From Apostichopus japonicus (lineage: Eukaryota; Echinodermata; Holothuroidea; Aspidochirotida; Stichopodidae): a stretch of DNA of 64,000 nucleotides. A model generated the notes under the pieces. The model did not search any database, was not told where the DNA came from, and was given only the letters and a program-made list of their open reading frames with translations. Shown here piece after piece: positions 7,771 through 62,068 of the stretch. The translations under genes and the position numbers were made by a program. The first letter of the stretch is position 1. Each line of letters begins with the position of its first letter. Where the stretch lies: assembly GCF_037975245.1 (NCBI RefSeq), contig NC_092576.1, forward strand, positions 30,420,611 through 30,484,610, read 5' to 3'.

Positions 7771-8523
7771 TGACCAATTGAATGCAATGTCTCTGTTGAA
7801 GCAGACGTATTTGGACATTGTGACAGTGATTATGAGAGCGAGGAAGACCCAGCAACAACAGAGCAAAATGAAACTGATATTGATCTGCAGGATTTTGCAG
7901 AGTCATTTGTGAACGAAGACAAGGTTATTGTTTGGGTGTCAAAAATACAGGATTTACTAAAAACGATCCATGGAGATGTTTGTCCTGTCCCAAATTTCCA
8001 GAGAAAGCCCGTCTTAGTAATTCTTTCTTTGGGTTTGCTTTAAAAATAAAATGGTCATGCAGCCAAGGACACCGACCTGGACAGTGGCTTTCACAGCCGT
8101 CGTTGAAGAAGATGTATGCTGGCAACCTGTTAATTGCAGCTGGTACAGTTTTGTCTGGCAACAGCATACATAAGACCATGCACTTCTTCAAATGAATGAG
8201 TCTCAAGTGTATCACAAAAGATACCTTTCATAGAGTCCAGAGACTGTATGTGTCACCTGTTGTTGAAAATTATTGAAAGAGGATGCAACAAGTCATTCTA
8301 TCATCCTTTCTTGATCATCCTGTAACCATGGCTGGGGACGGCAGATGTGATTCTCCGGGGCATAGTGCCCAGTATTGCAGTTATGTCTTTACTGAAGAAT
8401 CCTCCAAGCAAGTTATACACGTTGAAATTGTAGACGTACGGGAAGCTGGAGGGAAAAGTCCGAACATGGAGAAATTAGGATTTGACAGAAGTATGCATTT
8501 CCTCATGGACCAAATGAATGTGC
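7771..8523 (+). pseudogene. transposase core block 1 (zinc-like segment and first catalytic region)
   Basis: After a TTTCTTTACAG acceptor at 7770 comes an acidic linker (DSDYESEEDPATTEQNE), then a frame change into CLSCPKFPEKARLSNSFFGF and CSQGHRPGQWLSQP. It continues through AGNLLIAAGTVLSGNSIHK and a TGA, then MSLKCITKDTFHRVQRLYVS and a second TGA at 8277-8279 where family members have Trp. The block ends with GDGRCDSPGHSAQYCSYVF and MEKLGFDRSMHFLMDQMNV at the point where a retrotransposon fragment begins. From 7932 onward all parts share one reading frame, so the two TGA codons are point lesions rather than splice features. Confidence 0.55.
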
Positions 8524-8763
8524 TTTTTTACGTGACCCGCCATGCGGGATACAAAACGTGACGGCCAAACGGCACTACCGAACCATCCCATTCTGACAAA
8601 CGAAACTAAGGTCTAGCGAGCCAAAAGAGCATACGCCCGCCGACCTGCAGAGACAAAACGCCCAACCCCCCCCCCACCCAAACATTAAAAAACGTACACA
8701 AGGACGACCCGCACGCAGCGAAACGAAAAACCCCTCCCCAGCGTCCAAAAAAGGCAGCCCCAG
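8524..8763 (-). mobile_element. 5'-truncated Tx1-like retrotransposon 3' end
   Basis: On the minus strand this matches, with small differences, the last about 240 bases of the complete element ending at 17,256. It covers the end of ORF2 (GR..RWG..CFVSLRAGRP), the G-run, the GTCTCTGCAGGTCGG segment, the stem-loop and the final ACGTAAAAA. It is flanked by a 6-bp duplication ATGTGC (8518-8523 and 8764-8769). A 5' truncation with target duplication is the normal product of target-primed reverse transcription. It interrupts the transposase-derived gene between its first and second catalytic regions. Confidence 0.85.
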
Positions 8764-8972
8764 ATGTGCAAGAATTAGTAACAGATGCCCACCTGCAAAT
8801 TTCTGCTCTAATGAGAAACTCCCCAAAGTGCAACCAGGTCACACATCAACATCATGTATGGCATGGCTCGAAAAGCCTTGGCAAGAAAGTGCACAAAATT
8901 TCAGCAGTAGGAGAAAATATAATTTTGCAGAGCTGGATGACCTCTGTGAAAAACCACTTTTGGTATTCATCC
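8764..8972 (+). pseudogene. transposase core block 2, between two insertions
   Basis: Reading continues from the duplicated target at 8764 in the same frame as the upstream block: VQELVTDAHLQISALMRN, then HQHHVWHGSKSLGKKVHK and FWYSS, where the hairpin transposon interrupts it. The TDAH and H..VWH..K motifs are the second catalytic region of the family. No stop occurs in these about 70 codons. Confidence 0.55.
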
Positions 8973-10344
8973 GGTTACATCTCTATGTTCCGACGTCTCT
9001 ATGTTCCGACGTCTCTATGTTCCGACGTCTCTATGTTCCGACGTCTCTATGTTCCGACATCTCTATGTTCCGACAATTTTTTGGGACTGTCATTTTTTTT
9101 ACCCCAATTTTTTATGACCAAATTTTTGACACCAACATGTTTTCGGACCAACTTTTTTCTTTTTGACCAAACTGATTTTGGTCCCAAAAAATTTGAGTAC
9201 AAACGATTTAATTTCGGGTCACAAGCAATTTTCGGTCACAAGCACTATTTGGGTCATAACAAACTTTGGGCCCTTTTTTTCCTGGAAAAAATTTGGTGCG
9301 TCCAAAAAATTGTGTCCTCCAAAAAGGTAGGTCAGAAAAAATGTTGGTCCAAAAAAACTTAAGTCCCCCCCAAAAAAGTTGGGTCCCAAAAAATTTGGGG
9401 CCCAAAAAATTAAGTCTCCCAAAAAAATTGAGACATAGAGACGTCGGAACATAGAGACGTCGGAACATAGAGACGTCGGAACATAGAGACGTCGGAACAT
9501 AGAGACGTCGGAACATAGAGACGTCGGAACATAGAGACGTCGGAACATAGAGACGTCGGAACATAGAGACGTCGGAACATAGAGACGTCGGAACATAGAG
9601 ACGTCGGAACATAGAGACGTCGGAACATAGAGACGTCGGAACATAGAGACGTCGGAACATAGAGACGTCGGAACATAGAGACGTCGGAACATAGAGACGT
9701 CGGAACATAGAGACGTCGGAACATAGAGACGTCGGAACATAGAGACGTCGGAACATAGAGACGTCGGAACATAGAGACGTCGGAACATAGAGACGTCGGA
9801 ACATAGAGACGTCGGAACATAGAGACGTCGGAACATAGAGACGTCGGAACATAGAGACGTCGGAACATAGAGACGTCGGAACATAGAGACGTCGGAACAT
9901 AGAGACGTCGGAACATAGAGACGTCGGAACATAGAGACGTCGGAACATAGAGACGTCGGAACATAGAGACGTCGGAACATAGAGACGTCGGAACATAGAG
10001 ACGTCGGAACATAGAGACGTCGGAACATAGAGACGTCGGAACATAGAGACGTCGGAACATAGAGACGTCGGAACATAGAGACGTCGGAACATAGAGACGT
10101 CGGAACATAGAGACGTCGGAACATAGAGACGTCGGAACATAGAGACGTCGGAACATAGAGACGTCGGAACATAGAGACGTCGGAACATAGAGACGTCGGA
10201 ACATAGAGACGTCGGAACATAGAGACGTCGGAACATAGAGACGTCGGAACATAGAGACGTCGGAACATAGAGACGTCGGAACATAGAGACGTCGGAACAT
10301 AGAGACGTCGGAACATAGAGACGTCGGAACATAGAGACGTCACC
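8973..10344. mobile_element. non-autonomous hairpin transposon with minisatellite arms
   Basis: The element is flanked by the 8-bp duplication ATTCATCC (8965-8972 and 10345-10352). Its ends are inverted: GGTTACATCTCTATGTTCCG on the left, and GGTGACGTCTCTATGTTCCG read inwards from the right (18 of 20 identical). The left arm holds 6 copies of a 16-bp unit (8981-9074) and the right arm about 57 copies of its reverse complement (9433-10341). The central about 360 bases are degenerate units of AATTTTTTGGGAC type on the left and their complement on the right, so the whole element can fold as one long imperfect hairpin. It has no coding capacity. An 8-bp duplication fits hAT, P or Merlin-like transposases, but I cannot assign a superfamily. 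It splits the transposase-derived gene. Confidence 0.8.
9433..10341. repeat. 16-bp minisatellite, about 57 identical copies
   Basis: The unit ACATAGAGACGTCGGA is repeated without any visible base change for 909 bases. Because 16 is not a multiple of 3, every frame cycles through the same 16 residues. On the minus strand this produces long stop-free frames (9208-10359 and others) that are repeat artefacts rather than proteins. Confidence 0.98.
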
Positions 10345-10352
10345 ATTCATCC

Positions 10353-11033
10353 AAGACATTCCAAGGTGATAGCAGTCTTCTGAAGGCCAAATTTCTTGGG
10401 ATTCTTCACCATACAGTGAACGAACATGAGTGGGTATTTGGGACAGATGGCCGTCCTGGCAAGTGCAATTATCAAGAGTTGTAACAAGCAGATCGCGACA
10501 AACGTTGGTTGCAGAAGGGATCTATTCCACATAAGACTTTGGCAAAAGAGTTAACTGCTCATCGCTCCCTGAAGAGCCTCCCATACTATAGGAATTTCAG
10601 GCACACAGGAATCCTGGAATCCTTAAACAACCATGTCCTCATGTATGCCCCAAAAAGGCATTCATATGACTTTGTTGGTTTCAGCATTAGAACCAAACTG
10701 GCAGCCATTGATCACAACTACCACTCCAGTAGACAAGAAGCGAAAACCACAGATGGCCAACCTCGCTATGAGTGCAAATACAGTAAGAGTTCTGGTCGGT
10801 TCACAGCACAGCATGTCTTGGAGCACAAGACACATGGTTATCTTCCAGAACTAATGGCACTTGTTTTTGTGCAAAGAGGCAAGACACAAGATCCTCTGCA
10901 CCAGAAAATTCCACTTGCACAAAATGACCCACGACGAATTCACCCTAGAATTTCAATGCTTCCAAGGCCAACCATCCAAGAACTGATCAGTAGCCACAAA
11001 AGCCGGTTTGAAAAACCAACAACTGAAAGATGA
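10353..11033 (+). pseudogene. transposase core block 3 (C-terminal part)
   Basis: The frame resumes directly after the 8-bp target duplication with GDSSLLKAKFLGILHHTVNE, passes a TAA at 10482-10484, and runs open from there to a TGA at 11031-11033. The second part includes KRWLQKGSIPHKTLAKELTA, HTGILESLNNHVL, YAPKRHSYDFVGFSIRTKLA and AIDHNYHSSRQEAKTT, matching the end of the same transposase family. Both insertions upstream are in-frame by length (246 and 1,380 bases including duplicated target), so the three blocks keep one register. Confidence 0.6.
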
Positions 11034-12402: not shown

Positions 12403-12506
12403 TGTGCGTTCGTCGTATATAGTTATCGTATATCGTTTTCAGTTTAAACCTGTGTTTAGTTGGTTTTTGTTTTTGTTACTCCTCTGGCCTAGCCACCTTC
12501 GGTATC

Positions 12507-13676
12507 ATGGCATCGCGCCGTGATTCGAAAATTGTTAAGTTGACCTTCACCGGTGAACAAGCGGTTCCACCGGTGCAAGTTTTTAGTATTTTAAAGAGTA
12601 AGGGTGTTGTTGTGCCTGGAGAGGTTGATGCTTTACAAGCTCTCCAGGGTCGTAATACGTATGATCTACGTTTTACCAGTGACGTGACCCGGCAGAAGGG
12701 TGTCACGTTGCTGAGTGGGGTTGAAGGTTTGACAGTTACTCCATACGAACGTTCCGTATGGGTAACTGTCATCCACGTAGGATTAGAGGTGCGTCAAGAA
12801 CTTGTCGCAACTGTTTTAGGTCGGTTCGGGGCTGTCAAAGCTATTAAAATGTGCTCCTACGCACAGGCCCCTGGGGTGTTCAACGGGCACCGACAGGTTC
12901 GGATCGACCTCAAGCAGGACATTCCCTCCTTCCTTTTTATTGCCGGGCATAAAGCTCACGTGCGTTACCCCGGTCAGCCCCGTACCTGCTTCAGGTGTGG
13001 GGAGACCGGGCACGAAGCTAAGGGCTGCCCAAATAAAAAGTGTGGGCGCTGCCTTCGTCTTGGGCATGATACCTCTGCTTGCCCAAGCGAAGTCGTGTGC
13101 TCACTCTGTGGGAAGGAGGGACATGTCTTTCGCGCTTGTCCCTCCTCTTATGTCTTTATGACAAAGAGTGGGGGTCAAGCAAAGGCGCCAAGTTCTGGCG
13201 CACCTACTGCCCCGGAGGAGGCTTCACGCAAGGAGGGGGAAACGGGTGAGGATTCACTCTCCGCACCTCCTTCACCCTCCCCCGTAGTTGCAGACCCCGT
13301 GCCCGCACCGAGAAAGTCTCCACCAGCTTCCCCCATCAACCCCGTGCCCGCACCGTCTCCACCACACAGCGAAGCGGACACGGGGTCTCCACCAGCTTCC
13401 CCCATCAACCCGTCCAGTTCCGTCCCCAGTCCGCCGCCGGTATCGCCAGATCCGGAGACTCTGTCTGACGACGACTCGGTCGTCCGGTCTCCGGAGGCTA
13501 TGTCTGACAGCGACTCCGGAGGCTCGGTGATCGTCGAGCCGAAACGTGCCACTGGGACGAGCTGGTACGACGAGATGGGGGAACCCTCACTGAAAAGGTC
13601 GGCCTCAAGTGACGACTCTGACGACGATATGTCGTCTAGAGCGCGCTTGAAGCTTACAGAATCGACGTCGGCGTAG
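12507..13676 (+). CDS. Tx1-like retrotransposon ORF1 protein, three CCHC zinc knuckles
   Basis: A 389-residue nucleic-acid-binding protein. It starts at ATG 12507 (MASRRDSKIVKLTF, equivalent to MAARRDSKIVLLSF in the other copy). Residues 1-150 contain a conserved N-terminal region with GEVDALQ and a VWVTVIHV segment. Three CCHC knuckles follow at about 161-174, 179-192 and 198-211 (C-x2-C-x4-H-x4-C each). The rest is a Pro/Ser/acidic tail with repeated PASPINP units. In L1/Tx1 elements ORF1 packages the RNA. No disruption is seen. ORF2 begins 20 bases after the stop. Confidence 0.9.
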   Translation: MASRRDSKIVKLTFTGEQAVPPVQVFSILKSKGVVVPGEVDALQALQGRNTYDLRFTSDVTRQKGVTLLSGVEGLTVTPYERSVWVTVIHVGLEVRQELVATVLGRFGAVKAIKMCSYAQAPGVFNGHRQVRIDLKQDIPSFLFIAGHKAHVRYPGQPRTCFRCGETGHEAKGCPNKKCGRCLRLGHDTSACPSEVVCSLCGKEGHVFRACPSSYVFMTKSGGQAKAPSSGAPTAPEEASRKEGETGEDSLSAPPSPSPVVADPVPAPRKSPPASPINPVPAPSPPHSEADTGSPPASPINPSSSVPSPPPVSPDPETLSDDDSVVRSPEAMSDSDSGGSVIVEPKRATGTSWYDEMGEPSLKRSASSDDSDDDMSSRARLKLTESTSA

Positions 13677-13696
13677 TTTTGCCCCATTGCCCTCTC

Positions 13697-16600
13697 ATGG
13701 CCCATACATTTTCAGTTGCCACCTTGAACGTCAATGGCATGAGGGATCATCGCAAGCGCAGTCGCATTTTCCAATATTGTATTTCAATGGAAGTCGACTG
13801 CGTTTGCCTACAAGAAACACATATTTTGGAAGAAGATGTCCCTCTATGGGCCTATGAGTGGGGTGGTGGGCTGCATGCTTCGTTTGGTTCGTCTTCATCC
13901 TGTGGCACTGTCATCCTCCTGTCACCTCGTCAGGCGGGTTGTGCAACTAGGGTGGAGACGGATCACGAGGGCCGATTGGTTTGCATTCTTTTCAAGTATC
14001 CACAGGGTAACATCTCCCTTTGCAATGTGTATGCTCCCAATCGGCCTTCTGCTAGACGAGATTTTTTTAACACACTGCCTTCCTTTGTTCCTGGTAGTGC
14101 TCCATGTGTCATGGTCGGAGACTTTAACTGTGTCCCAGACTCGGGTCTTGACAGACTCGGGGCTTCTGTGTCTGCTAGTCCCGACGCTGGGATCACAGAA
14201 TTGGACAGATTCACTTCCGCACACCTTTTAGCCGATGTCTGGAGGCGTATACACCCGTGTAGTACGGTGTATACGTGGGTGAGGCCTAACGGAGAAGATG
14301 CCTCCAGGATAGATCGAGTGTATGCGCCCGTAAGTTTTAAATTTTCGGGTTGCGAGACGCTCAGCTGTCCGCTCTCTGACCATGACACTGTGGTAGCACG
14401 TTTTGTTTTGCCTTCCATTTTCCCGATCGGGCGGGGCCTATGGAAGCTTAACTGTCGGATTCTTGGCGAGGCAGAGTTCCGCCAAGGTTTCGAGACCAGG
14501 TACAAAGGATGGCAAACATTGAAGCCGGCCTTTGCTTCTACATCCCAATGGTGGGATGATGTCAAGTTGCGCATCAAACGCTACGCAATTCAGTATTGCG
14601 TGAACCGCGCACGGCGTCGAAGAGAAAAATTCTCGAAGCTGTGCGCGGAGGTGAAGTTTGGCGACCCTTCGGCTGTCATCGCTTTGCAGACTTATCTCGA
14701 TGAAAAGTACCACGGTGCCCGCGTCAGGGCCCGTGTCGAAGCGGTGGAAGCCGAGGAGCGCCCTTCACTGAGGTTTTACCAGTCCGTTAGCTCATCGGCA
14801 GGTGACAGACGCGTCCCGTCTGTGCGCGCTACTGATGGGACCGTGGTGAGTGACCCTCACGGCATTGTCCGCGTATATAAAGAGTATTATTCCAGTTTGT
14901 TTACGCGTGGCAATGTCGACTTGTCGGCACAGGCTGATTTATTGAGGGGAATCTCAAAAACCGTTCCCCACGATGTCAATGATATTTTGGGGGGCGGAAT
15001 AACAACTGTTGAGCTTTGGAAGGCGCTTTCGAAGATGAAGAATGGCAAGTCCCCGGGTTCGGACGGGCTTCCGAGGGAGTTCTACCGAACCTTCTGGGCA
15101 ATAATAGGACCCGACATCAGAGCCGTCTTCGAGGACGCCTTCCAAAACGGACTGTTAAACCAAAGTCAACGTATGGGCATGGTCATTTTGCTGCCCAAGT
15201 CTGGGGACCCCTTGGATCCCCGTAACAAGCGTCCGATCACCTTGTTAAATGTGGACTACAAGTTGCTGGCTAAGGCTTTGTGCAACCGCCTTGCACTGGC
15301 TATGCCGCATCTTGTGGGTGATCTCCAGACTTGTGCAGTCAAGGGTCATTGCATCCAGCAGAACTTGTGGTTGATGCGCGACTTGACCGACTTTGTTATT
15401 GAGCGTGATCTGCCATGTGCATTGGTGTCTCTGGACCAGCAGAAGGCCTTTGACATGGTGGATCGCGGTTTTTTAATGAATGTATTGGAGACGTCTCAGT
15501 TGCACCCGGTTTTTCGTAAATGGATTTCTGTTTTGTATGAAGAAAGTTTCAGTTCTGTTATCGTAAATGGGTTTTGTTCGGAGGTTTTTAACGTAGAGAG
15601 GGGGGTGCGCCAGGGGTGCCCTCTGTCTCCATTACTTTATGTTTTGTTTAGCGAGTCCCTCTCTCGTCTTTTGGAAAGGGACTCCAGACTTGTTCCATTC
15701 GTTGTGCCAGGGGGTGCCAAAGTGAAATGCGCTCAATATGCAGATGACGTGACATGTGTTGTTTCGAGTCTGGGCTCCTTTCGCGCACTCTCGCAGGATT
15801 TATCTATTTTTGAGAGAGCTACCGGGGCGAAGTTGAATCCAGAAAAGACAAAGGGCCTTCGTCTTGGTAGCTGGAGATACAGAGACTTACCATTCGGTGC
15901 GTCGTGGTCGGATCAGAATATCAAAATTAATGGTATATGGTTCGGCTACGATGCACCTGGTGATGTCACCTGGAGCGAGAGGGCTGAGGTATTTGAGAGC
16001 AGGCTCGAAACCTTTGGCACCCGCTGGCTTTCGATCCTAGGGAAAGTCACCGTAGTTAATCGTTTTGTTTCGCCCATCTTGTGGTACCCGGGCGCGGTGT
16101 ATCCAATTCCGCGTCGCGTCCTGGTGCGGTTGGAGAGAGCGATATTTTCATTTATTTGGTCGGGTAGTACAGAGCTTGTGAAAAGGGCGGTAATGTACCA
16201 AAAACTGGAGAAGGGTGGGTTAGGGGTGGTTCATCTGGGAAGTAAGTTAACTTGTTTGTTATTTAAGCAGTTGTTTGTAGCGGTAACTGACCCAGGGTTG
16301 CCTTGTTCATATTTTCTACGTTTTTGGGGCGGTTTGCACCTGCGTCGATGGGTCCCGGCGCTGTTTAGCAACAGAGAACCGCATAGTAGTACTCCAAACA
16401 GGGTGGTGCGTGTCATTTGCTCCGCTCTGATTGAGTTGCCCCCTGTTGACCTGTCACAGCCGGCCCTCGTTCACAGTTCGTTGCGGGATAAGGCCTTGAA
16501 TGCAATTTTTGTACAGGGACGTCATCCTGTCGAAGTATGGCGTTCGGTGCATTCAAGGCTGAATGGTTGCAGGCTCCGTGACCTTGCATGGAGAATTGCA

Positions 16601-17089
16601 CACGGTGCCTTGGTGACCAATCTGAAAAGGTATCACTGGCGATTGGGTGATGGACTGTGCCCGAGGACCGGCTGTGACAGCTTAGAGAGTACTGCCCATG
16701 TTTTTTGGCATTGCTCCTTTGTTTTGAACTTGTGGGAGTGGTTTCAGTCCTTGACCGATCGTTTAACGGGAGACCGTTCCTGGTCGGTAGGACAGGGTTT
16801 TGTTTTGTATGGATTAGATCCTCCAGTTTGTTCCGTTGCTGTGTTGCAGCGTATTATTTATGTTTGTTCTGTTGTAAAAAAACTTATTTGGAGGAATAGA
16901 TGTGATGTTGTTTTTAGGGGGAAATTTGCCAGTTGGCAGGCAGTCCTGGAGGCGGTGAAGTGTGACATTCGCCTTCAGGTCGAAGGCGATTTTCGCCGTT
17001 TATCTAGGGCTGCCTTTTTTGGACGGTGGTGTGCTGGGGAAGGGTGTTTTGTTTCGCTGCGTGCTGGTCGTCCTTTTGTAGTTTTTTAA
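13697..17089 (+). CDS. Tx1-like retrotransposon ORF2: AP endonuclease and reverse transcriptase
   Basis: About 1,130 residues from ATG 13697; I prefer this start over a near-cognate TTG 18 bases earlier. The endonuclease fills residues 1-230, with LNVNGMR, QETH at about 39-42, GDFNCV and SDHD near 227-230. The reverse transcriptase follows, with RPITLLNVDYKLLAKAL, SLDQQKAFDMVD, RRGV-type RQGCPLSPLLYVL and catalytic YADD at about 681-684. Towards the C-terminus lies a CPRTGC..H....C motif starting near residue 988, as in L1/Tx1 ORF2 proteins. All expected catalytic motifs are present and the frame is uninterrupted. The protein would nick the target and copy its own RNA. Activity is not demonstrated, but this is the only apparently competent element in the window. 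Confidence 0.92.
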   Translation: MAHTFSVATLNVNGMRDHRKRSRIFQYCISMEVDCVCLQETHILEEDVPLWAYEWGGGLHASFGSSSSCGTVILLSPRQAGCATRVETDHEGRLVCILFKYPQGNISLCNVYAPNRPSARRDFFNTLPSFVPGSAPCVMVGDFNCVPDSGLDRLGASVSASPDAGITELDRFTSAHLLADVWRRIHPCSTVYTWVRPNGEDASRIDRVYAPVSFKFSGCETLSCPLSDHDTVVARFVLPSIFPIGRGLWKLNCRILGEAEFRQGFETRYKGWQTLKPAFASTSQWWDDVKLRIKRYAIQYCVNRARRRREKFSKLCAEVKFGDPSAVIALQTYLDEKYHGARVRARVEAVEAEERPSLRFYQSVSSSAGDRRVPSVRATDGTVVSDPHGIVRVYKEYYSSLFTRGNVDLSAQADLLRGISKTVPHDVNDILGGGITTVELWKALSKMKNGKSPGSDGLPREFYRTFWAIIGPDIRAVFEDAFQNGLLNQSQRMGMVILLPKSGDPLDPRNKRPITLLNVDYKLLAKALCNRLALAMPHLVGDLQTCAVKGHCIQQNLWLMRDLTDFVIERDLPCALVSLDQQKAFDMVDRGFLMNVLETSQLHPVFRKWISVLYEESFSSVIVNGFCSEVFNVERGVRQGCPLSPLLYVLFSESLSRLLERDSRLVPFVVPGGAKVKCAQYADDVTCVVSSLGSFRALSQDLSIFERATGAKLNPEKTKGLRLGSWRYRDLPFGASWSDQNIKINGIWFGYDAPGDVTWSERAEVFESRLETFGTRWLSILGKVTVVNRFVSPILWYPGAVYPIPRRVLVRLERAIFSFIWSGSTELVKRAVMYQKLEKGGLGVVHLGSKLTCLLFKQLFVAVTDPGLPCSYFLRFWGGLHLRRWVPALFSNREPHSSTPNRVVRVICSALIELPPVDLSQPALVHSSLRDKALNAIFVQGRHPVEVWRSVHSRLNGCRLRDLAWRIAHGALVTNLKRYHWRLGDGLCPRTGCDSLESTAHVFWHCSFVLNLWEWFQSLTDRLTGDRSWSVGQGFVLYGLDPPVCSVAVLQRIIYVCSVVKKLIWRNRCDVVFRGKFASWQAVLEAVKCDIRLQVEGDFRRLSRAAFFGRWCAGEGCFVSLRAGRPFVVF

Positions 17090-23945: not shown

Positions 23946-26491
23946 ATGGATATTCCTACAAGTTTGGAAGAGTTTAAACTTTGGAAAGTTGACAGACTGA
24001 AGGAATTTTTAAAGAAACGAAAGTTGAAGATAAGTGGCCGGAAAGAAGAGTTGGTTGCTCTAGCGTACGCTGCCGTTCAGATGAACATTGCCTGAAGTTA
24101 ATATAGCAGATGCGCGAACTGAAAAGGCAGATGACTACTCATCGGTACTTCAGCTTGAAGGAGAGACCCTGCCCGATCCTTTTTCGGATTTACCACTTGC
24201 ATGGGAAGGTGAAGTTGCAATGCAAAAATGGCTGCCTTGCATGTACATTGATATTGCTCATTATTTTACCAGTATGGATTATATTGAACTGAAGCAAAGA
24301 CTCATGACGGACTACAAAGATGGTAAAGCCTTCAGCTATTTAGAGTCTGGGTGGCTCGGAGAAATATATTACAATGCCATTTCTGCCGAGTCAAGGTTGT
24401 GCTTTTTAAAGGCAGAGTGTACACCATCGCAGCGGATCAACAATATTCCTTGGAAAGCTTGGATTTGTCTGGAGAAATCTTCTGGAAAGATCATGCGTGG
24501 ATATTGTACCTGTTTTGCTGGGTAAGTTTCATAGTTTCACTTTCAGATCAGCAGACAATATCTGAATGGGTTAAGTCTGCAAGCAATCATATGTCTTGAG
24601 ATATTCAAACAGAGGTCATAAATAAAACATAAAGTACAAGCCTGGGCCCTTGTTCAGTAGAAACTGCATCAATTTTATAAATCTAAATTTCAATATCAAA
24701 CCAAAAAAAGTAAATAAAACCATACCAGAACTGCATGCCAAGTCATATGAAAAAATGAAGGCATTTTTATTTTGGCCCTTCAATCCCCTTTTTTAGGGGT
24801 GTACTGGAACTCGGTTCAGGTCGGAACCCTTCACTTAACAATGTTTGGGTTCCAGCTGGAACCCATATATGTATAATTTTAAAAAGTGTTTCAAAAGAAC
24901 GTTTAACTTCATAATTAAAAACACATTTTTATCTTTCTTACTACAGGCTTGGATTGTCGTGCAACCATGTGGGAGCCATACTATATAAAGTAGATTTAGC
25001 TTGGAGGACAGGCCGCACCCGACGCTCTGTTACTGGTCAGGCGTGTGCCTGGAACAGGTATGGTGCAAAGAAGAATGTTGAACCAAAGAGGGTGGCTGAT
25101 ATGGACTGGAGTAAGCCTCACTTTTCAAAACATGGTAAGGAATTAAAAGAAAATAACTGGTGTTTTAATTAAGATCTGAAGACTTGCTGATAATATCATA
25201 GCAAATATAAAAAATAAAAATATCTTACCGTTAAAGGAAAGTTTAAGTCATTATTTTATAATAGCTGTGACTGTCACTTGTCCCGGACCTGGACGTGGCA
25301 AATGCCACGTTATATTCTTTGTACATCATACATAAGAGAAAAAAGGACACAGATAGCTACTCCAACTCTCAGCTGGCTGACCAACTACTGCACCTTATGC
25401 CAGCATATCCAGATGTATGCTTCCTCCAACAAGTGGATATTGGTCTAAGCCTACCAAGTTATGCTACTGAAATGAAATTAAATCATTTTGTTTTTATTCT
25501 GCTTTTAAGTTTGCAGTCGCCAATCAATCCTCCCGAGCGCCAGTTGTTCAGCCCCAACCAAAAGGACAAAGCTACTCCAGCTCTCAGCCTGCTGACCAAC
25601 CACCTGTTGCCAGCTTGTCCAGATGCATGGTTCCTGCAACAAGTTGATATTGGTCAAATTACGCTACCAAATTACGCTACTGAAAGTGATGTAAACATTG
25701 AATGTACAGTGGATGTCTCTACGACCGCTTGCATCCAACCTCACATCACAACACTTGCTAGAACAATGGACAATTTCTTTGAAAAGCCTTCGGTTTTCAC
25801 TGATGAACAGGTGAAACAAATCGAAGAGACGAGAGGGCAAGCAAACAACCCAACATGGATTGCGCAAAGGCAAGGGAGACTTACTGCCTCTAACGTTCGT
25901 GCAGTTGTCAACCGTGTAAGAACAATTAGCAAATCAAAGTCACCGGTTGACACAACCGGTTTGGTCAATTTAATTTCAGGGATTTCATCTCCCAATCCAG
26001 ACTTGCCTGCCCTGAAGTATGGCAGAGAGATGGAGTCACAAGCCAGGAATAATTATGTTTCAGTTATGCGTACCCATGGCCACCCATCCACCACGGTGAC
26101 CGAGTGTGGACTTTTTGTACACCTTCAATTAATTTATTTAGCCGCCACACCAGATGGGATTGTGAAGTGTAAGTGTTGTGGTACGGGACTGTTGGAGATT
26201 AAATGCCCACTGTCAATTTGTGACCAGATTCCTTCCTCAGATTGTGTTGCATACTTGGTAGATGATGATGACAAAGGTAATACTGTTTTGAAAAGATCAC
26301 ATGGCTATTACTTCCAAGTTCAGATGCAGCTTAGAGTAACCAAGACACAATGGTGTGACTTTTTTGTATTTTCAACCCATGGCTATGTCAGAGAAAGAAT
26401 ATATTTTAACAAACAAATCTGGCAAGAAATGTTAAAGTCTACTTCGTTCTTTTTTACTTCTATTTATGCTAAAACCTTAACTGCTACATAA
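23946..26491 (+). pseudogene. SAP-SWIM-YqaJ nuclease gene (one frameshift)
   Basis: Exon 1 (23946-24521) starts at an ATG with MDIPTSLEEFKLWKV and RLKEFLKKRKLKISGRKEEL, a SAP-like DNA-binding helix pair. The frame then shifts by one base near 24,092 before the conserved block LPDPFSDLPL, DIAHYF and LESGWLGEIYYNAI. A SWIM zinc finger (CTCFAG at the exon end, LSCNHVGAIL after it) is split by an intron with matching phase. Exon 2 is 24947-25134 and a final coding block runs to 26491. This last block has a YqaJ/lambda-exonuclease-type fold with WIAQRQGRLTASN, LKYGREMESQA, ATPDG and LLEIKCPLS, the D and ExK metal ligands. Animal members of this family are known but uncharacterised; DNA end-resection-type activity is inferred. 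The 5' part of the last block carries an internal duplication. Confidence 0.75.
25345..25690 (+). repeat. in-frame duplication inside the YqaJ gene
   Basis: A segment of about 125 bases at about 25345-25470 recurs diverged at about 25561-25686. Both copies include CCAGATG.ATG.TTCCT.CAACAAGT.GATATTGGTC and TATGCTACTGAA, in the same reading frame (peptide FLQQVDIG twice). The DNA between them ends in TTTGCAG, a possible acceptor at 25,515, so the first copy may be intronic. Confidence 0.7.
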
Positions 26492-50908: not shown

Positions 50909-52690
50909 GTGCTTTTTTTTTTGGCAAAGAAACGGACACGGACCAAATGTCAACAAACCAAAAACAATCCCAGTCTGTTTAACAACCACCAAAAACCCAA
51001 CTGAAAACCCACAAATCTCTCACTAACCCACAAATGTATAAAATGTAGCGTTTAACGTCACGTGAAAAGGACACGGACCCAAAGGCTAACAGAACAAAAA
51101 CAGTAAAGCTCTACAAACCAGCCCCAAAAAGCCAACTCCAAACCACAAACAGAAACCCACCCCAACCCATATTATGTAACGACCACACAAACCCACCACC
51201 CCACACATAACAACTAACTCACTCCAAAATTCATACGGGGTACGCCGTCCCGATAGCAGACAACAGGCTTCGCATTACCTGCGAAGTTTTCCCAATACGG
51301 GTCTTTTGAGGCCCCTAGCAATGTTCCCCCTTTTCTTACGAGGGAGCAGAGTTCTTAACTCCTCGTCAACCTTGATCGAGTGGACCGCCCCTGTCAGGAA
51401 CAGGAGGTCCACTAGCGACCATCGTGTCCGGTATAGCGGAAGCGGCTGCGGGTAGGGTGGAAGGGCCACTCGAGTCAATGAGATCAGTGGCCTGTTTCGT
51501 CTCATCAAACCAATCGGAGGACTCCTTAGCCACGACTAATAAGGCTGTAGTGCAGTCCTCCATTGGCGAGTCAGCATCTGGGCCACTTAATTGTCTCTTG
51601 GGCCGGTTGACTCGGGGCCCAACTAGTATCACCGATAGCGGGCGTAGCTACCGGTGAATCAGTACAAGCGGTATCCTGCGCCGCGTGCCACTCCGCTAGT
51701 ACCATCTCCGCCGTTTTGTCCTGCTCTGCCTCAGTGGGCAGGCTGGCAGTCTCGGCAAGTTCGATCAGGGGAGAGGTCGGACACGAAAGGGGGAACAAAG
51801 CCTCCACCGGGGCACTAGTGTCGGACACTGGAGCTATGGCAGGAGCATCATGTGATACAGTGTCAGAGGCCGGGACAGGGACCGCTTCAACCACGCCCGT
51901 AGCCACTTTCGCGGCGTATGAGCGGTCTGGGCCAAAACGGGCGAGATGGCCCGTTTTCCCACACGAGTTGCAAACAATATCCCTTTACACTCGGCCAGGG
52001 TATGCCCAACCTGTAAACAGCGGCTACACCGCTTGTTCGGGCACAACATGGCCTCATGCCCTTCTAGCCCACACCAACAAGTGCGAGGCTCTCCCGAATA
52101 TGCAATGTGGGCCCTGTGCCCATTAGCCCACAAGGTAGAGGGGATATCGGACTTGAGTTCAACTGTAACTCGTCTAGTCCCGGTCTTGACATCCTTACAT
52201 TCAAGGAATTCCGGCTCCTCGTAGCCGGTCACTTTACCAAAACGCCCCAGTGTCCGCACAACAACCTGTTCAGACATGTACAGGGGGAGATGGAGGACTG
52301 TCACCCACACCAAACTGTCATACGGTGTGACCTTCAGTCCCTCAACTCCCTCCAACACATGGACACCTCGGACGCGGGCAGCCTCCGAGGTGAACCGAAC
52401 ATCAAAAACATTCATACCCCCGGAGAGGGTTTACGCTGAAGCGCGTCAACCTCTCCGGGGACCTTTAAACCAACAGAACGCAAAACTTGAAAAAAAACTT
52501 GTCCGGGGACGACCTTAGCCTCCCCCGATAAACTCCACAATACGATTTTCCTGTCACGGCGAGCCGCCATGACAGCTAGGGGTGTGGCAAGCCACGCACC
52601 TACCAAAAACAAAAACCACAAAGCCAAAACTACACTAAACAAACTATTGAAAGGCCAACGTAAAAAACACAAAGTGTGTGGTGAACGAAA
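50909..52690 (-). mobile_element. ORF1-only Tx1-like derivative (copy 3)
   Basis: Read on the minus strand it starts near 52,690, has the ORF1 start at 52,570, and ORF1 sequence to about 51,275. It then jumps to the last codons of ORF2 (equivalent to about 62,010 of copy 2) and the 3' UTR, ending in an A/T run and GCAC at 50,909-50,912. About 3.3 kb of ORF2 is missing. The junction is the same as in the copy at 53.7-55.3 kb. It inserted into the HARBI1-like gene. The 5' UTR is diverged from the other copies and its border is uncertain. Confidence 0.75.
51275..52570 (-). pseudogene. ORF1 of copy 3, frameshifted
   Basis: The start MAARRDRKIVLWSLSGEAKV (ATG at 52,570) shifts frame near 52,425 into FDVRFTSEAARVRGVHVLEG and VWVTVLHLPL, then knuckles TCWCGLEGHEAMLC (first knuckle lacks one residue) and CSRCLQVGHTLAEC. 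A further frame change precedes the acidic tail. It closes with LGKLRR and TAA immediately before the deletion junction. Confidence 0.75.
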
Positions 52691-53402
52691 AAAGTGGAGA
52701 GTAGCAGTACTTAGCCTATTCCAACTTCAACTTGTGTAGGCTACAGTATTTACAATGATGCCGCGCCTAGCCAAGTAACTAACAATATCATTGCCATTGT
52801 ATTGTAAATTGTTCTTGTACAAGTTTTGTAGCAGCCTAACACTGTTCAGTATGCAAGAATTTGAATGCATGAATTTATATATATACGATGAAGAATAATT
52901 TTTCAACCAACCATCGTAGGAACGCCCGGTCCGTTTACAGGATAAAAGTATTGAAGCCGAAGTTGCGTAAAAACCACTCAGGACAGTGAGTCGCCTACAC
53001 ATATACTCGCAAATGCGTGGCGTAACTTACTTGTGTTATAGATATAATACGTACAGCTACAGTCAACAGTGTGATCACCGCATGTTGCCAATCTACACCA
53101 TTATACGTGTCGTAGCTCGATATATTTATGTACAAGTCATTGACATTCTCTTTATACTTTTTTTTTGGTTTTTAGTGAAATAATTCTTTTCTATTTTCAA
53201 GAGCAAGAACGTTTTTTGTGTGGATGCAATAGGTAAAGAACTAACACACCGCGACCTTTAATGCATATAGTGACGTGACACTAATCCGTCTACTTCCGAG
53301 AAGTGGGAAGCAAGCGTTCCCACGCAAACCGTACCGCCGGTTAACAATTAAACTTCATTTAAACACCGTAGTAGAAACATCGTCAACACAGCACAACGCA
53401 AA

Positions 53403-53569
53403 ATGTCTGCAAATTCAAAGGTACATTTTTTTAATCAGATGGGAAGAACCTCCGAAATCGGATGTCGTGGAAGAACCTAAGATTTTATTAAAAAATAACA
53501 CGATTGGTGCAACCGTTGATGTCGAATATGAAGACGAAAGCGGACCGGCAACTATTTTGAACATCGATC
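53403..53569 (+). pseudogene. BEN gene 2, N-terminal exon
   Basis: The ATG at 53403 has an A at -3 and gives MSANSKVHF. A one-base shift in the T-run near 53,425-53,432 is needed to enter the well-conserved IRWEEPPKSDVVEEPK frame. The exon ends at ATCGATC followed by GTGAGT. The sequence upstream (53,270-53,400) could hold the promoter. Confidence 0.5.
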
Positions 53570-53698
53570 GTGAGTATCAGCCTTGTTTATTGGCAGTGCA
53601 TGTATGAGAAACATCGTTAGGCTCCACAACCTAGCTTAGGCCGTGCCATTAATTTACAGCATGGCGCAACATTTGTAGTATCAACATCGTACAATTGA

Positions 53699-55264
53699 TG
53701 CTTTTTACGTGCAAAGAAAACGGACACGGACCAAAGGTCAAGAAGATCAAAAACAATCCCAGTCTGTTAAACAACCACCAAAAAACAACCAAAAACCCAC
53801 AAACGTATACAATGCAGCGTTCAACGTAATGTGAAAAGGACACGGACCAAAAGGCTAACAGAACCAAAAGAACAAAGCTCTAAAACCAGCCCCAAAAAGC
53901 CAACCCCAAACCACAAACAGGACCCCCAACCCATATTATGTAACGACCACAAACCCCCCCCCCCCCTTCACACCTAACAACTAAATCACTCCAAAACTTC
54001 ATCCGGGGTACGCCGTCCCGATAAGTAGACAACAGGCCTGCGCATTACCTCCGAAGTTTTCCTTTTCGGGTCCCTAGCAGTGTTCCCCCTTTTCTTACGA
54101 GCGAGCAGAGTTCTTAGCTCCTCGTCAATCTTGATCGAGTGGACCTCCCTGTCAGGAACAGGAGGTCCACCAGCGACCATCGTGTCCGGTATAGCGGAAG
54201 CGGCTGCGGGTAGGGTGGAAGGGCCACTCGAGTCAATGAGATCAGTGGCCTGTTTCGTCTCATCAAACCAATCGGAGGACTCCTTAGCATCAACTAATAC
54301 CCGGGGCCCAACTAGTATCACCGATAGCGGGCGTAGCTACCGGTGAACCAGTACAAGCGGCATCCTGCGCCGCATGCCACTCCGCTAGTACCATGTCCGC
54401 CGTTTTGTCCTGCTCTGCCTCAGTGTGCAGGCTGGCAGTCTCGGCAAGTTCGATCAGGGGAGAGGTCGGACACGAAAGGGGGAAAAAAGCCTCCAAAGCT
54501 AGTGTCGGACACTGGGGCGATGACAGGAGCATCAGGTGGTACGGTGTCAGAGGCCGGGACCGCTTGAACCACGCTCGTAGCCATTCTCGCGGCGTATGAG
54601 CGGTCTGGCCATAAACGGGCGAGATGGCCCGTTTTCCCACACGAGTTGCAAACGATATCCCCTTTACACTCGGCCAGGGTATTGCCCAACCTGTAAACAG
54701 CGTGTAACACCACTTGTTCGGGCAGAACATGGCCTCATGCCCTTCTAGCCCACACCTCCAACAAGTGCGAGGCTGGCCCAGGTATGCAATGTGGGCCCTG
54801 TGCCCATTAGCCCACAAGGTAGAGGGTATATCGGACTTGAGCTTAACTCTTACTCGTCTAGTCCCGGTCTTCACACCCTTACATTCAAGGAATTCCGGCT
54901 CCTCGTAGCCGGTGACTTTCCCAAAACGCCACAGTGTCCGCACAACAACCTGTTCAGACATGTCCAGAGGGAGGTGGAGGACTGTCACCCACACCGAACT
55001 GTCATATTGTGTGTGGCCTTCAGTCCCTCAACTGCCTCCAACACATGGACGCCTCGGACGTGGGCAGCCTCCGAGGTGAATCTAACATCAAAACAATTCA
55101 TTCCCGGGAGAAGTTAACGTCGAAGCGCGCCAACCTCTCCAGGGACCTTTAAACCAACAGACCGTAAAAGTGCGAAAAAAACTTGTCCGGGGACGACGTT
55201 AGCCTCCCCCGAAAAACTCAAGAATACGATTTTGCTGTCACGGCGAACCGCCATGACAGCTAGG
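53699..55264 (-). mobile_element. ORF1-only Tx1-like derivative (copy 4), 5'-truncated
   Basis: The minus strand begins at CCTAGCTGTC just before the ORF1 ATG (55,254) and runs through ORF1. At about 54,035 it joins the same ORF2-end sequence as copy 3, then the 3' UTR, ending TTTGCACGTAAAAAGCA at 53,699. An A-run sits at its 5' edge. It lies in an intron of the second BEN gene, on the opposite strand. Target duplication is not obvious. Confidence 0.75.
54040..55254 (-). pseudogene. ORF1 of copy 4, frameshifted
   Basis: Recognisable pieces include VWVTVLHLPLDMSEQVVVRT, GKVTGYEEPEFLECKGVKTG and TCWRCGLEGHEAMFC, with the second and third knuckles in shifted frames. The acidic tail then reads SSDWFDETKQATDLIDSSGP. 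In this copy the ORF1 end runs through the deletion junction into ORF2-end sequence (MRRPVVYLSG) in an unrelated frame. Confidence 0.7.
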
Positions 55265-57275: not shown

Positions 57276-57404
57276 TGTGGTAGCTTGTGTTCGTGTGTGA
57301 GTCAGTTCGTTGTTTAGTGTAGTTGGTGTGTTTTGGGTTTGGTTTGGGTTTGTTTCGTTTTGGTTTTTGTATAGGTGCGTGGCTTTGCCCCACCCCTAGC
57401 TGTC

Positions 57405-58678
57405 ATGGCGGCTCGCCGTGACAGCAAAATCGTATTGCTGAGTTTTTCGGGGGAGGCTAAGGTCGTCCCCGGACAAGTTTTTTCAGTTTTGCGTTCTGTT
57501 GGTTTAAAAGTCCCTGGAGAGGTTGACGCGCTTCAGCGTAAACCTCTCCGGGGTATGAATTGTTTTGATGTTCGCTTTACCTCGGAGGCTGCCCGCGTCC
57601 GAGGCGTCCATGTGTTGGAGGGAGTCGAGGTCACACCGTACGACAGTTCGGTGTGGGTGACAGTCCTCCATCTCCCTCTGGACATGTCTGAACAGATTGT
57701 TGTGCGGACACTGGGGCGTTTTGGGAAAGTAACCGGCTACGAGGAGCCGGAATTCCTTGAATGTAAGGGTGTAAAGACCGGGACCAGACGAGTTAGATTA
57801 CAACTCAAGTCCGATATCCCCTCTACCTTGTGGGCTAATGGGCACAGGGCCCACGTTGCATACCCGGGCCAGCCTCGCACTTGTTGGAGGTGTGGGCTGG
57901 AAGGGCATGAGGCCAGATTGTGCCCGAACAAGCGGTGTAGCCGCTGTTTACAGGTTGGGCATACCCTGGCCGAGTGTAAAGGGGATATCGTATGTAACTC
58001 GTGTGGGAAAACGGGCCATCTCGCTCGTTTATGCCCAGACCGCTCATACGCCGCGAGAGTGGCTACGGGCGTGGTTGAAGCGGTCCCCGTCCCGGCCTTT
58101 CAAACCGTATCACCTGATGCTCCTCTCATCGCCCCAGTGTCCGACACTAGCGCCCCGGTGGAGGTTTTCAACTCCCCTTCGTGTTCTACCTCGTCCCTGG
58201 AGGAAGTTGCCGCTCCGGCCGAGACTGCCAGCCTGCCCACTAAGGCGGAGCAGGACAAAACGGCGGAGATTGTATTAGCGGAGTGGCATGCGGAGCAGGA
58301 TGCCGCTTGTACTGGTTCACCTGTAGCTGCGCCCGCTATATCGGTGACACTAGTCGGCCCTCGAGTCAACCGGCCCAAGAGACATTAAGTGGCCCAGATT
58401 CTGACTCGCCAATGGAGGACAGCACTACAGCCTTAGTAGTTGTGGCTAAGGAGTCATCCGATTGGTTTGATGAGACAAAACACGCCATTGATCTCACTGA
58501 CTCGAGCGGCCCTTCCACCCTGCCCGCAGTCGCTTCCACTATACCGGACACGATGGTCGCTAGTGGACCTCCTGTTCCTTGTGACGAGGAGCTAAGAGGT
58601 CTGCTAGGTCGTAGGAAAAGGGGAAACACCGCTAAGGGCCTGAAAAGAGCCGTACTGGGAAAACATCGCAGGTTATGA
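57405..58678 (+). pseudogene. Tx1-like ORF1 (copy 2), one-base deletion
   Basis: From ATG 57405 (MAARRDSKIVLLSFSGEAKV) the frame runs through three CCHC knuckles: CWRCGLEGHEARLC, CSRCLQVGHTLAEC and CNSCGKTGHLARLC. It stops at 58388, because one A present in copy 3 is missing near 58,383. The shifted frame continues with SGPDSDSPMED, SSDWFDETK and LGKHRRL to a TGA at 58676-58678. The ORF1 stop overlaps the ORF2 start (ATGA), unlike copy 1, which has a gap. Confidence 0.85.
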
Positions 58679-61600
58679 CACCAGACACCTTATCCCTCGT
58701 CACCCTTAATGTGAATGGGATGAGGGGTACCCCAAAAAGGCGACGGATTTTACAGTTCTGCAAGTTGCTCCAAGTGGATGTGGTCCTTTTGCAAGAGACC
58801 CACATATCTTGTGAGAGTGATGTTCATCTTTGGTCCTTGGAGTGGGGAGGAGGCCTTTATGCCTCCTTTGGATCAGGGGCATCTTGCGGGACTGTAATTT
58901 TGGTGTCCCCAAAACTGTGTCATTGTGTGGGAAAAGTGGAGAAAGACCATGAAGGTCGGGTGGTGTGCATACACTTAAGGCTCACGCGGGGTGAGTTGGT
59001 TGTTTGCAATGTGTATGCCCCCAACCGGCCAGCATGTAGGAAAAATTTCTTCACGGTGTTGCCATCCTTTGTACCGGGTAAGGCAAATTGTATCCTTGGG
59101 GGGGACTTTAACTGTGTCCCTCACTCTGCGTTAGATAGACGTTCGAGGAAAGAGTCCCCCAATTGTACCACCGGCATGATTGAGCTAGGCTTGTTTGTCA
59201 AGCACCGAGATCCCAGGTGGTTGCTTGTACGTGGCATAAACCAGATGGAACAGTTTCATCCAGACTCGACAGGTTTTATGCCCCGCGTTTCCTCGATCTC
59301 GGTGCTCGATTATTTCATGTCCTTTATCTGATCATGACGCTGTTGTTTTGCGCTTGCAGCTGCCGGAGTCCTTTCATGTGGAGAAGGGACTTTGGCGGCT
59401 AAACACGGAAATTGTTAAAGAGCAAAACTTCAAGGAGCAATTTGTCGAGAAGTACAGAGGATGGCAGTCCCTCAAGCCTGCTTTTCCCAATGCGTTAGTC
59501 TGGTGGGACGAGGTCAAGTCCCTCATCAAGCAGTTCGCAATCAGGTATAGTGTTGAGAGAGCTCACCAACGGAGATTCAAGTTCCATTCCTTGTGCAACA
59601 GAGCAAGGGATGGTTCTTCATCGTCTGATCTGCATGCACTTGGAGTGTTTCTCGATGAGAAACTGCACGGAGCCCGAGTGCGTGCCAGAATCCAGTTTGT
59701 TGAGGCGGACGAGAAGCCCACTATTCGTTTTTACCGGGACGACACCAAGTCTGTGGTTGACCGCAGAATAAGGGCAGTGTGTCATCCTGGTGGGGTCGTC
59801 GTGGAGAGCCCGCAGGCAGTCCTAGGGGTATTTGGGTCGTTCTTTTCGAACCTGTACTCCAGGGCTGCTGTTAGCGAGGATCTCCAGGTCTGGTATAGAC
59901 AAGGCCCCCCCTGAGAGTAAAAATGATAGCTTGGGCTCGAATCTCTCCGTTGGTGAGCTCTGGACAGCGGTAGCAGCGATGAAGAAGGGAAAGTCCCCCG
60001 GTCCCGATGGCCTCCCGGCAGAGTTCTATAGGACCTTCTGGGAGGTCCTCGGTGGGGACTTGAGAGATGTGTTCGTTACCGCTTTCCAGTTGAATTACAT
60101 GAGCCAAACACAGCGGGTTGGAAATATTGTTCTCCTCCCAAAGTCAGGAGATCCTTTGGACCCTAGAAATAGGCGTCCAATAACGCTGTTAAATCTGGAC
60201 TACAAAATCCTGGCCAAAGCATTAGGAAATCGCTTATCGGACGTGATGCCGGATATTGTAGGTCCTCTCCAGACTTGTGCTGTGCGAGGCAAGTGTATTC
60301 AACATAACCTCTGGTTGATGAGAGACTTGATCGAGTTTGTTAAAGTTCGTGATTTGCCATGTGCACTGGTCTCACTGGACCAGGAAAAGGCCTTTGACAT
60401 GGTAGATCACGACTTCCTGTTCAGAACCTTAGAGTCCTTCGGATTGAACTCCGTATATATTCGTTGGGTCTCGTTATTATACAAGGACGTCACGAGCATT
60501 GTCACTGTTAACGGATTAACTTCTGGTCCCTTCCCGGTTCGAAGAGGAGTCCGTCAGGGTTGTCCCCTCTCCCCGTTGTTGTATGTTTTCTTCAGCGAAA
60601 CGCTCAGTACCTCGCTGGACAGATGCTTTGGATTTCGACCCTTCAACATACCGGGTGGGGCTAGAGTTAAATGCGTGCAGTATGCCGATGACGTCACCTG
60701 TATTGTGTCGGACCTCGCCTCCTTCAAGCCTTTATCGAAGGTTTTGACCACCTTCCAAGAGGCTACTGGTGCCAGACTAAACAAGTCCCAAGACCAAAGG
60801 GCTGCGATTGGGAGGTTGGCGCGGCCAATCCCTCCCGTTCGATGCTACTTGGTCAGATGTCATGATCAAGGTAAATGGCATCTGGCTAGGTTATGGTGCC
60901 CCGGAGGCCACCACTTGGGCCGAGAAGGCTGATCAAGTGGAGGCAAGGCTCGACACATTCAGTCACAGGTGGCGCTCCCTCCCTGGGAAGGTTACAGTTG
61001 TAAATAGGTTCATTGTTCCTCTCCTTTGGTATCCTGGTACGGTGATCGCCGCACCGGATCATGCCTTGGTGCGAATGGAGAGGATCATTTTTTATTTCAT
61101 TTGGGGAAAGCGCAAACCAAACCTGGTCAAAAGGACCGTTCTGTATATGACCCCCTTGAGCGGTGGGCTTGGTTTGGTCTACCTACCATCTAAACTGTGC
61201 TTTCTCCTCTTGAAAGGTGTTTTTGTTGCTTTTGAAAATCCTTCGTTGCCCTTTGCTTTTTTTTGTTAGGTGCTGGGGTGGGTTTCTTTTGCGACACCAC
61301 TGGCCCGGATCCTTTTCCAATAACCGGCCAAAGGCGACACGCCCTTCTGGGGTCTATACTCAGATTGGTGACTCTCTTCGTAGAATCAAAGAAGAGGGTG
61401 GGCCACATGTTCTGCTGAACGTGGCTCCCTCTGTGTTATACCCACCATTGTTTCGTTCAATGCTCGCGCCTGTGTGCCCGTCGGCTTGCCGGACCGCCAT
61501 CTCTCCGGATGTGTGGCGGTCTGTGTGTTGCAAGTCACTAGATAGCCGTCTCAGGGACTTGGCGTGGAGGATTGCACATGGGGTCCTCATCACTAACCAT

Positions 61601-62068
61601 TTTCGCGTAGTCAGGTGGCGATTAGGTGATGGGATTTGTCCCCGTGTGGGCTGTAAAGCCATCGAGACTATGCAACACCTTTTGTTGGAGTGTCCATTTG
61701 TCCGGTTGGTGTGGGATTGGTTTCACGCCTTCGTTATTGGTGTTATTGGTTGCACACAGTGGGCCATTAGTAGTGATTTTGTTTTGTATGGTTTGTTGCC
61801 CCCTGTGTGCCCAACCTGGGTTAGGGATCTGCTGTTGTTGTTTGCCGCTGTTATCAGGAGACACATCTGGAACAGCAGATGCCGCCTAGTTTTCGATGGG
61901 GACGTCTGGAGGGCAGAGGATGTTGTCCCCCTCGTGCAAAGTGACATCAGGTTGCGCATGGAGGCGGACCATGCACGGCTTCCCGACACTGCCTTTCGTA
62001 GACGCTGGCGCAAGCCTGTCGTCTACTATCGGGACGGCGTTCCCCGGATGAAATTTGGAGTGAGTTAG
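58675..62068 (+). pseudogene. Tx1-like ORF2 (copy 2), endonuclease and RT, frameshifted
   Basis: It starts MTPDTLSLVTLNVNGMRGTP with an intact endonuclease N-terminal half (LLQETHIS, GGDFNCVPHS). Frame changes near 59,215, 59,330, 59,880, 60,800 and 61,260 break the rest. The reverse transcriptase is recognisable: RRPITLLNLDYKILAKALGN, SLDQEKAFDMVDHDFL, RRGVRQGCPLSPLLYVFF and YADDVTC. The C-terminal CPRVGC..H...C segment and the end KPVVYYRDGVPRMKFGVS are present. It is non-functional, but all parts are in order. Confidence 0.88.

Follow-up and report, generated by a model that had tools for sequence, protein, structure and literature searches.

The structure at positions 8973-10344 of the stretch analysed here, a window of 64,000 nucleotides of contig NC_092576.1 from the sea cucumber Apostichopus japonicus, raises a simple question. 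Two arrays of one and the same short repeat face each other across a core, and an earlier note on this DNA took the whole for a transposon with minisatellite arms. Is it indeed a mobile element, what could move it, and how do its arms acquire their very different lengths?

The element measures 1,372 bp and is flanked on both sides by ATTCATCC. The left (8965-8972, plus strand) and right (10345-10352, plus strand) copies of this target-site duplication are identical over all 8 bp and directly abut inverted GGTKAC tips. The left tip, GGTTACATCTCTATGTTCCG (8973-8992, plus strand), which begins GGTTAC, is exactly the same in the majority of the 47 elements of the family set described below; the right tip, GGTGACGTCTCTATGTTCCG (10325-10344, minus strand), begins GGTGAC. 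After GGTKAC the tip runs on as ATCYCTATGTTCCG, which is unit sequence, and the left tip amounts to a terminal 16-bp unit in which the first six bases are altered. The left arm (8979-9074, plus strand) comprises six 16-bp units of the TCTCTATGTTCCGACG type, as had been claimed. The right arm (9433-10341, minus strand) runs in the opposite orientation and holds 56 exact reverse-complement units (TRF: 56.8 copies, 100% matches); the earlier figure of about 57 is reached by counting one degenerate inner unit as well. Between the arms lies the core (9075-9432, no strand assigned), an AT-rich imperfect inverted repeat in which, by fold and alignment, degenerate inverted inner arms of the AATTTTTTGGGACC type surround a middle that is conserved across four aligned copies (window, L033, L034 and L046).

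The window copy differs from many of its relatives. Its core measures 350 bp versus approximately 550-570 bp in many of the 47 elements, and alignment with L033, L034 and L046 attributes the difference to deletions flanking the middle on both sides. Since its right tip reads GGTGACGTCTCTATGTTCCG where the family form is usually GGTGACATCCCTATGTTCCG, the outermost right unit has taken on the array sequence; the copy has lost this variant end unit as well as stretches of core on either side of the middle. Folded as single-stranded DNA, positions 8973-9547 (left arm and core together with the six innermost complete units of the right arm) reach -183.3 kcal/mol against a mean of -65.3 (sd 4.9) for shuffled sequences, none of 100 shuffles being as low, and the perfect arms supply much of this energy. 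Long inverted repeats able to fold back, evident here from the fold and from the opposite orientation of the arms, are one hallmark of the foldback class. No gene was seen in the element, and the open frames of at least 120 aa that cross it run mainly through array and core. The 8-bp duplication, the inverted ends, the core of degenerate inverted units and the lack of a gene had all been described before and are borne out.

The site itself tells of an insertion. The 5' part of an open reading frame lies immediately outside the element (8766-8972, plus strand) and the 3' part, with its own stop codon, resumes behind it (10353-10898, plus strand); when the flanks are joined the open frame continues across the site, with a single stop codon of its own downstream. 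Related frames at three other loci of this genome (L074-L076) lack the element and run uninterrupted across its position, and in translated alignment they match the joined flanks free of gaps. At the protein level L076 aligns over 251 residues with 67% identity and zero gaps, and at the DNA level the alignment with L075 shows small gaps (12 of 745 columns), the nearest approximately 40 bp from the site and none at it. Because the related frames align without gaps over the site, the element plus one copy of the duplication constitutes the extra sequence, and on this comparison the window element is an insertion into a multi-copy open frame. The frame family (window 8766-8972 and 10353-11033; L074:655-2307) gave 94 matches to a 151-aa query, both window pieces included in the count; a 550-aa open frame is present in three of its copies, on contigs C5, C9 and C15, and the downstream half of the interrupted window frame has no Pfam match. 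A DNA search with the left flank (8472-8972) as an empty-site test failed to provide such a site because most of its matches were to another dispersed repeat, at 8517-8765; the protein search provided it. This repeat of approximately 250 bp stops shortly before the interrupted frame and recurs with 91-95% identity at no fewer than 40 other places (40 scored of 863 candidates), mostly on C11, C16 and C17.

Other features of the window include a two-frame non-LTR retrotransposon (12423-17089) whose first frame codes for a zinc-knuckle protein and whose second, of 1,149 aa, contains endonuclease and reverse transcriptase domains. Broken stretches at 51571-55117 and 57375-62068 resemble it by eye, with a reverse transcriptase match at 59826-60929 in the part searched. 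A 406-aa open frame at 25271-26491 carries a YqaJ-like viral recombinase domain, of a kind frequent in eukaryotic mobile elements.

The genome-wide search for tip and unit that the earlier note had proposed covered 671,581,487 bases in 35 contigs. It returned 463 exact matches to the tip GGTKACRTCYCTATGTTCCG and 726 overlapping matches to a four-unit pattern, while both controls (the reversed pattern in the case of the tip) gave 0. Among the contigs, C29 holds a further, fragmented set of COX1 matches (at 14.7-16.1 kb and at 30.8-31.2 kb), which suggests a redundant or broken mitochondrial contig. The mitochondrial COX1 proper (L086) uses the echinoderm/flatworm code, with TGA as tryptophan and AAA at positions where asparagine is general in COX1.

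We fetched 67 stretches (L001-L067), selected because they resemble the window copy or contain an exact tip. The main set of 47 elements consists of the window copy and those loci with both tips beginning GGT and flanking 8-mers differing at no more than two positions. Their lengths range from 336 to 1,541 bp (median 703), and their duplications, 35 of them distinct, are perfect in 39 cases, with one mismatch in six and two mismatches in two. Tabulation of the flanking 8-mers, likewise proposed earlier, was extended to 53 two-tip elements by adding L053, L066 and four loci with poor duplications (L013, L039, L040 and L057). Perfect 8-bp duplications flank 41 of the 53 and 49 have at most two mismatches; four of the 12 without a perfect duplication differ at 3-5 positions. 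As a control, left flanks were combined with right flanks taken from other elements, which yielded no perfect match in 2,088 combinations and 29 with two or fewer mismatches. Duplication of the target at many distinct sites is a second hallmark of the foldback class. The distinct duplications begin with a purine in 28 of 35 cases and end with a pyrimidine in 29, and their palindromic pairing is modestly above that of shuffled sequences (198 of 5,000 shuffles reach it); since this excess is only modest, target preference was not used for choosing a superfamily.

The 22 loci outside the main set are varied. Two are flank extensions only (L048, L049), two are complete (L053, L066), four are those with poor duplications, in three the second tip is diverged (L047, L051 and L065, whose flanking 8-mers differ by eye at 2, 1 and 1 positions) and 11 show a single tip, no second one being present in the fetched sequence; the stretches of L009, L017 and L025 end inside the array. 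L041, L043, L052 and L062, each with a single tip, look truncated or interrupted, and L043 continues into sequence whose reading frame we take to resemble a sulfotransferase. L053 had been considered a single-tip locus and was rejected as such, having both tips and the perfect duplication CCAAAAAC with a left arm reduced to part of one unit. L040 (155-555) bears two right-type tips, GGTGACATCCC at either end, between flanking 8-mers that differ by 3 as aligned, which suggests conversion of one end into the form of its partner.

The central claim of a transposon with minisatellite arms is upheld by the duplications and tips, by comparison with the empty site and by tip matches in the hundreds. 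In our reading the element is a DNA transposon of the cut-and-paste type, non-autonomous and built as a foldback, whose arrays change after insertion; we assign this reading a probability of roughly 0.93. A transposase supplied from elsewhere would recognise the GGTKAC tips and the repeated TCTCTATGTTCCGACG unit, excise the element and reinsert it with an 8-bp staggered cut, the 8-bp duplication itself being observed. The arms are tandem arrays of this unit, most often five on the left and three on the right, which after insertion lengthen or shorten by whole units, as copies that share a site show. Slippage, unequal exchange or repair synthesis aided by the hairpin-forming arms would probably bring about these changes.

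Arm length varies widely across the 47 elements, from 2 to 24 units on the left (mode 5) and from 1 to 57 on the right (mode 3); tandem-repeat arms whose unit number differs between copies and between arms are a further hallmark of the class. Copies with common flanks reveal when such differences arise. In the GTTAATGA group (L028, L042, L055 and L059), whose members do not differ in the 60 bp shown of either flank, left-arm length is 6, 3, 5 and 4 units, respectively; left-arm counts alone are given, since small indels disturb those of the right arm. The eight AGCATAAT copies (L002, L004-L007, L029, L030 and L061) have nearly identical flanks and comprise five with 6/3 units and three with 5/2, and in the GTATGTAC group, whose flanks are also nearly identical, the right arm has five units in two copies and six in one. 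When shared-site copies are aligned the differences are 16-bp steps and the tips are kept. Because both flanks are shared, each group probably goes back to a single insertion, duplicated afterwards together with the adjoining DNA, and gene conversion could in principle mix events within such groups. These alignments of copies at a common site indicate that arm length changes after insertion, in steps of whole 16-bp units. The AGCATAAT foldback was evidently carried along within a larger repeat, and as a hAT dimerisation domain is located approximately 2.3 kb from L029 and L030 the carrier may be a hAT transposon.

The longest arms are strikingly homogeneous, with 56 of 57 identical units in the window copy, 53 of 55 in L034 and 23 of 24 in L008; the window copy and L034 represent large, almost perfectly uniform one-arm expansions to 55-57 units. 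In the arms of L021 and L023 variant units recur, a pattern that the copying of blocks of units would be expected to leave. A HiFi assembly of Apostichopus japonicus has been reported (PMC10344927), and if the assembly searched here is HiFi-based a collapsed or invented array is unlikely, as arrays of approximately 0.9 kb are well within a HiFi read. The earlier suggestion that the array drives its own expansion survives in a weak form, in that arrays shift by whole units after insertion. We are doubtful that the arrays are altered mainly during transposition or replication, for instance by hairpin-templated gap repair after excision, and not by ordinary slippage. Such a route would fit the expansions of 24, 55 and 57 units in one arm of single copies, the ability of the arms to pair as a hairpin in the computed fold and the conversion seen in the last right-hand unit of the window copy, but site-bound change does occur, given that copies of one insertion site, and probably of one transposition, differ by 1-3 units.

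The foldback transposon that we favour requires an enzyme, and to our knowledge none that moves echinoderm foldbacks has been named. No transposase gene was found between or beside the tips in the family copies examined. A region with tips far apart (C2:27432121-27442359) was considered as an autonomous copy and turned out to contain three short copies. The candidacy of the Merlin superfamily is tentative and on balance rather improbable. Merlin families start with GG, generate 8- or 9-bp duplications and in some cases bear internal tandem repeats, as described in PMC8101967; the element shares the 5'-GG ends and a duplication of this length, and the genome contains 11 matches to the Merlin domain (DDE_Tnp_IS1595). 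Against this, the best match to either tip within approximately 1.5 kb on each side of 8 of the 11 loci has 7 mismatches of 20, a diverged or absent source being possible, and 8-bp duplications are also possible in Mutator-like elements (PMC6446971). Comparison of the Merlin loci among themselves gave no clear ends, and none of the tandem repeats beside the two loci searched (L078 and L081) is the 16-bp unit; at L081 the transposase copy has 20-bp and 22-bp tandem arrays next to it, neither of them related to that unit. Six P loci (of 45 matches) and six MULE loci (of 38) contain no exact GGTKACATC within approximately 3 kb, the closest tip-like 20-mer at these loci having 6 mismatches (L096). 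A transposase tied to the tips was thus not found among the Merlin, P and MULE loci examined. The hAT domain has at least 150 matches in the genome (150 of 633 candidates scored) and KDZ has 41 among the matches listed.

A bolder proposal, which we consider quite improbable, casts the 16-bp unit as a selfish cassette for transposase binding. The more units a copy has in an arm, the better it would compete for a shared transposase of an unrecognised superfamily, characterised by GGTKAC tips, an 8-bp duplication and a weakly RTNNNNAY-like target, and hairpin-assisted tip repair would add units, the element lengthening its own arms while moving. For the earlier note's own suggestion, that the array may supply many transposase-binding sites, the THAP domain of Galileo, which binds sites in the tandem repeats of its terminal inverted repeats according to PMC3688188, offers a precedent.

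There is scarcely any chance that the structure is an ordinary minisatellite or satellite inverted accidentally around an AT-rich spacer: the right arm by itself is a perfect 56-unit array and the four-unit pattern matches 726 times with overlaps, but recurrent tips, duplications and distinct insertion sites contradict a chance satellite, and all 15 arrays on C1-C3, among the 100 matches listed of 726, lie 7-147 bp from an exact tip. As each of these 15 adjoins a tip, a free satellite seems unlikely, and arrays without tips, which the earlier note had named as the observation that would overturn its view, did not emerge among them. The tip list used for this comparison reaches into C6, and arrays at C7:3877879 and C8:5228916 fall outside it. 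The sole listed array on C4 belongs to L015, whose left tip has by eye a few extra bases and which passed no tip filter; one listed array on C8 belongs to L034, which has both tips.

As a foldback transposon the element is clearly a new family of a long-known kind. Its closest known system appears to be the TU elements of sea urchins. TU elements have long inverted ends with an outer domain made of a variable array of approximately 15-bp direct repeats, an inner domain and an 8-bp duplication. On that description the family reported here would resemble them in its inverted array ends, inner domain and 8-bp duplication, and its host belongs to the same phylum; its unit differs in being 16 bp long, the comparison being one of descriptions and not of sequences. 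The recognised foldback architecture, with inverted arms that fold back and hold variable tandem repeats in gene-less copies, is reported from Drosophila, rye, Arabidopsis, a midge and sea urchin in PMC4079207, which cites a 1983 paper for the last. To call an array that doubles as terminal inverted repeat unusual was therefore an overstatement, variable tandem-repeat arms being known in foldback-type elements (PMC4079207; PMC3573991).

Further likenesses exist among flies. FB of Drosophila melanogaster has the architecture in common, as gathered from PMC4079207, and Tetris of D. virilis, in the same account, shares variable tandem repeats in inverted arms, non-autonomous copies, structural diversity and a duplication of similar length (8-10 bp). 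The Tetris units are approximately 220 bp long with an outer flanking domain, whereas here a 16-bp array reaches to 6 bp from the tip; they also build satellite-like arrays of kilobase size, and among the matches listed here no array was observed away from a tip. Galileo, of the P superfamily in Drosophila, has long inverted ends that in some subfamilies contain tandem repeats unequal between the arms, as described in PMC3573991. It differs in that transposase-coding sequence is known for it, and no such relative was found here. P elements moreover have a CA tip, in contrast to GG in this family. Rehavkus, a MULE-related element, is similar in that a minisatellite adjoins the inverted end, and differs in encoding a transposase, in its 9-bp duplication and in having a minisatellite described, in the account of PMC6446971, only before the 3' end. 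No paper on the present family, and none that pairs sea cucumbers with foldback elements, was found in the open-licence library searched.

A large family with clean tips and duplications and with copies that share an insertion site, in a genome probably assembled from long reads, provides a system for studying how foldback minisatellite arms grow. It also allows one to ask whether the number of units raises mobility and which enzyme moves the elements, and it adds useful evidence on how the arms of foldback elements change.
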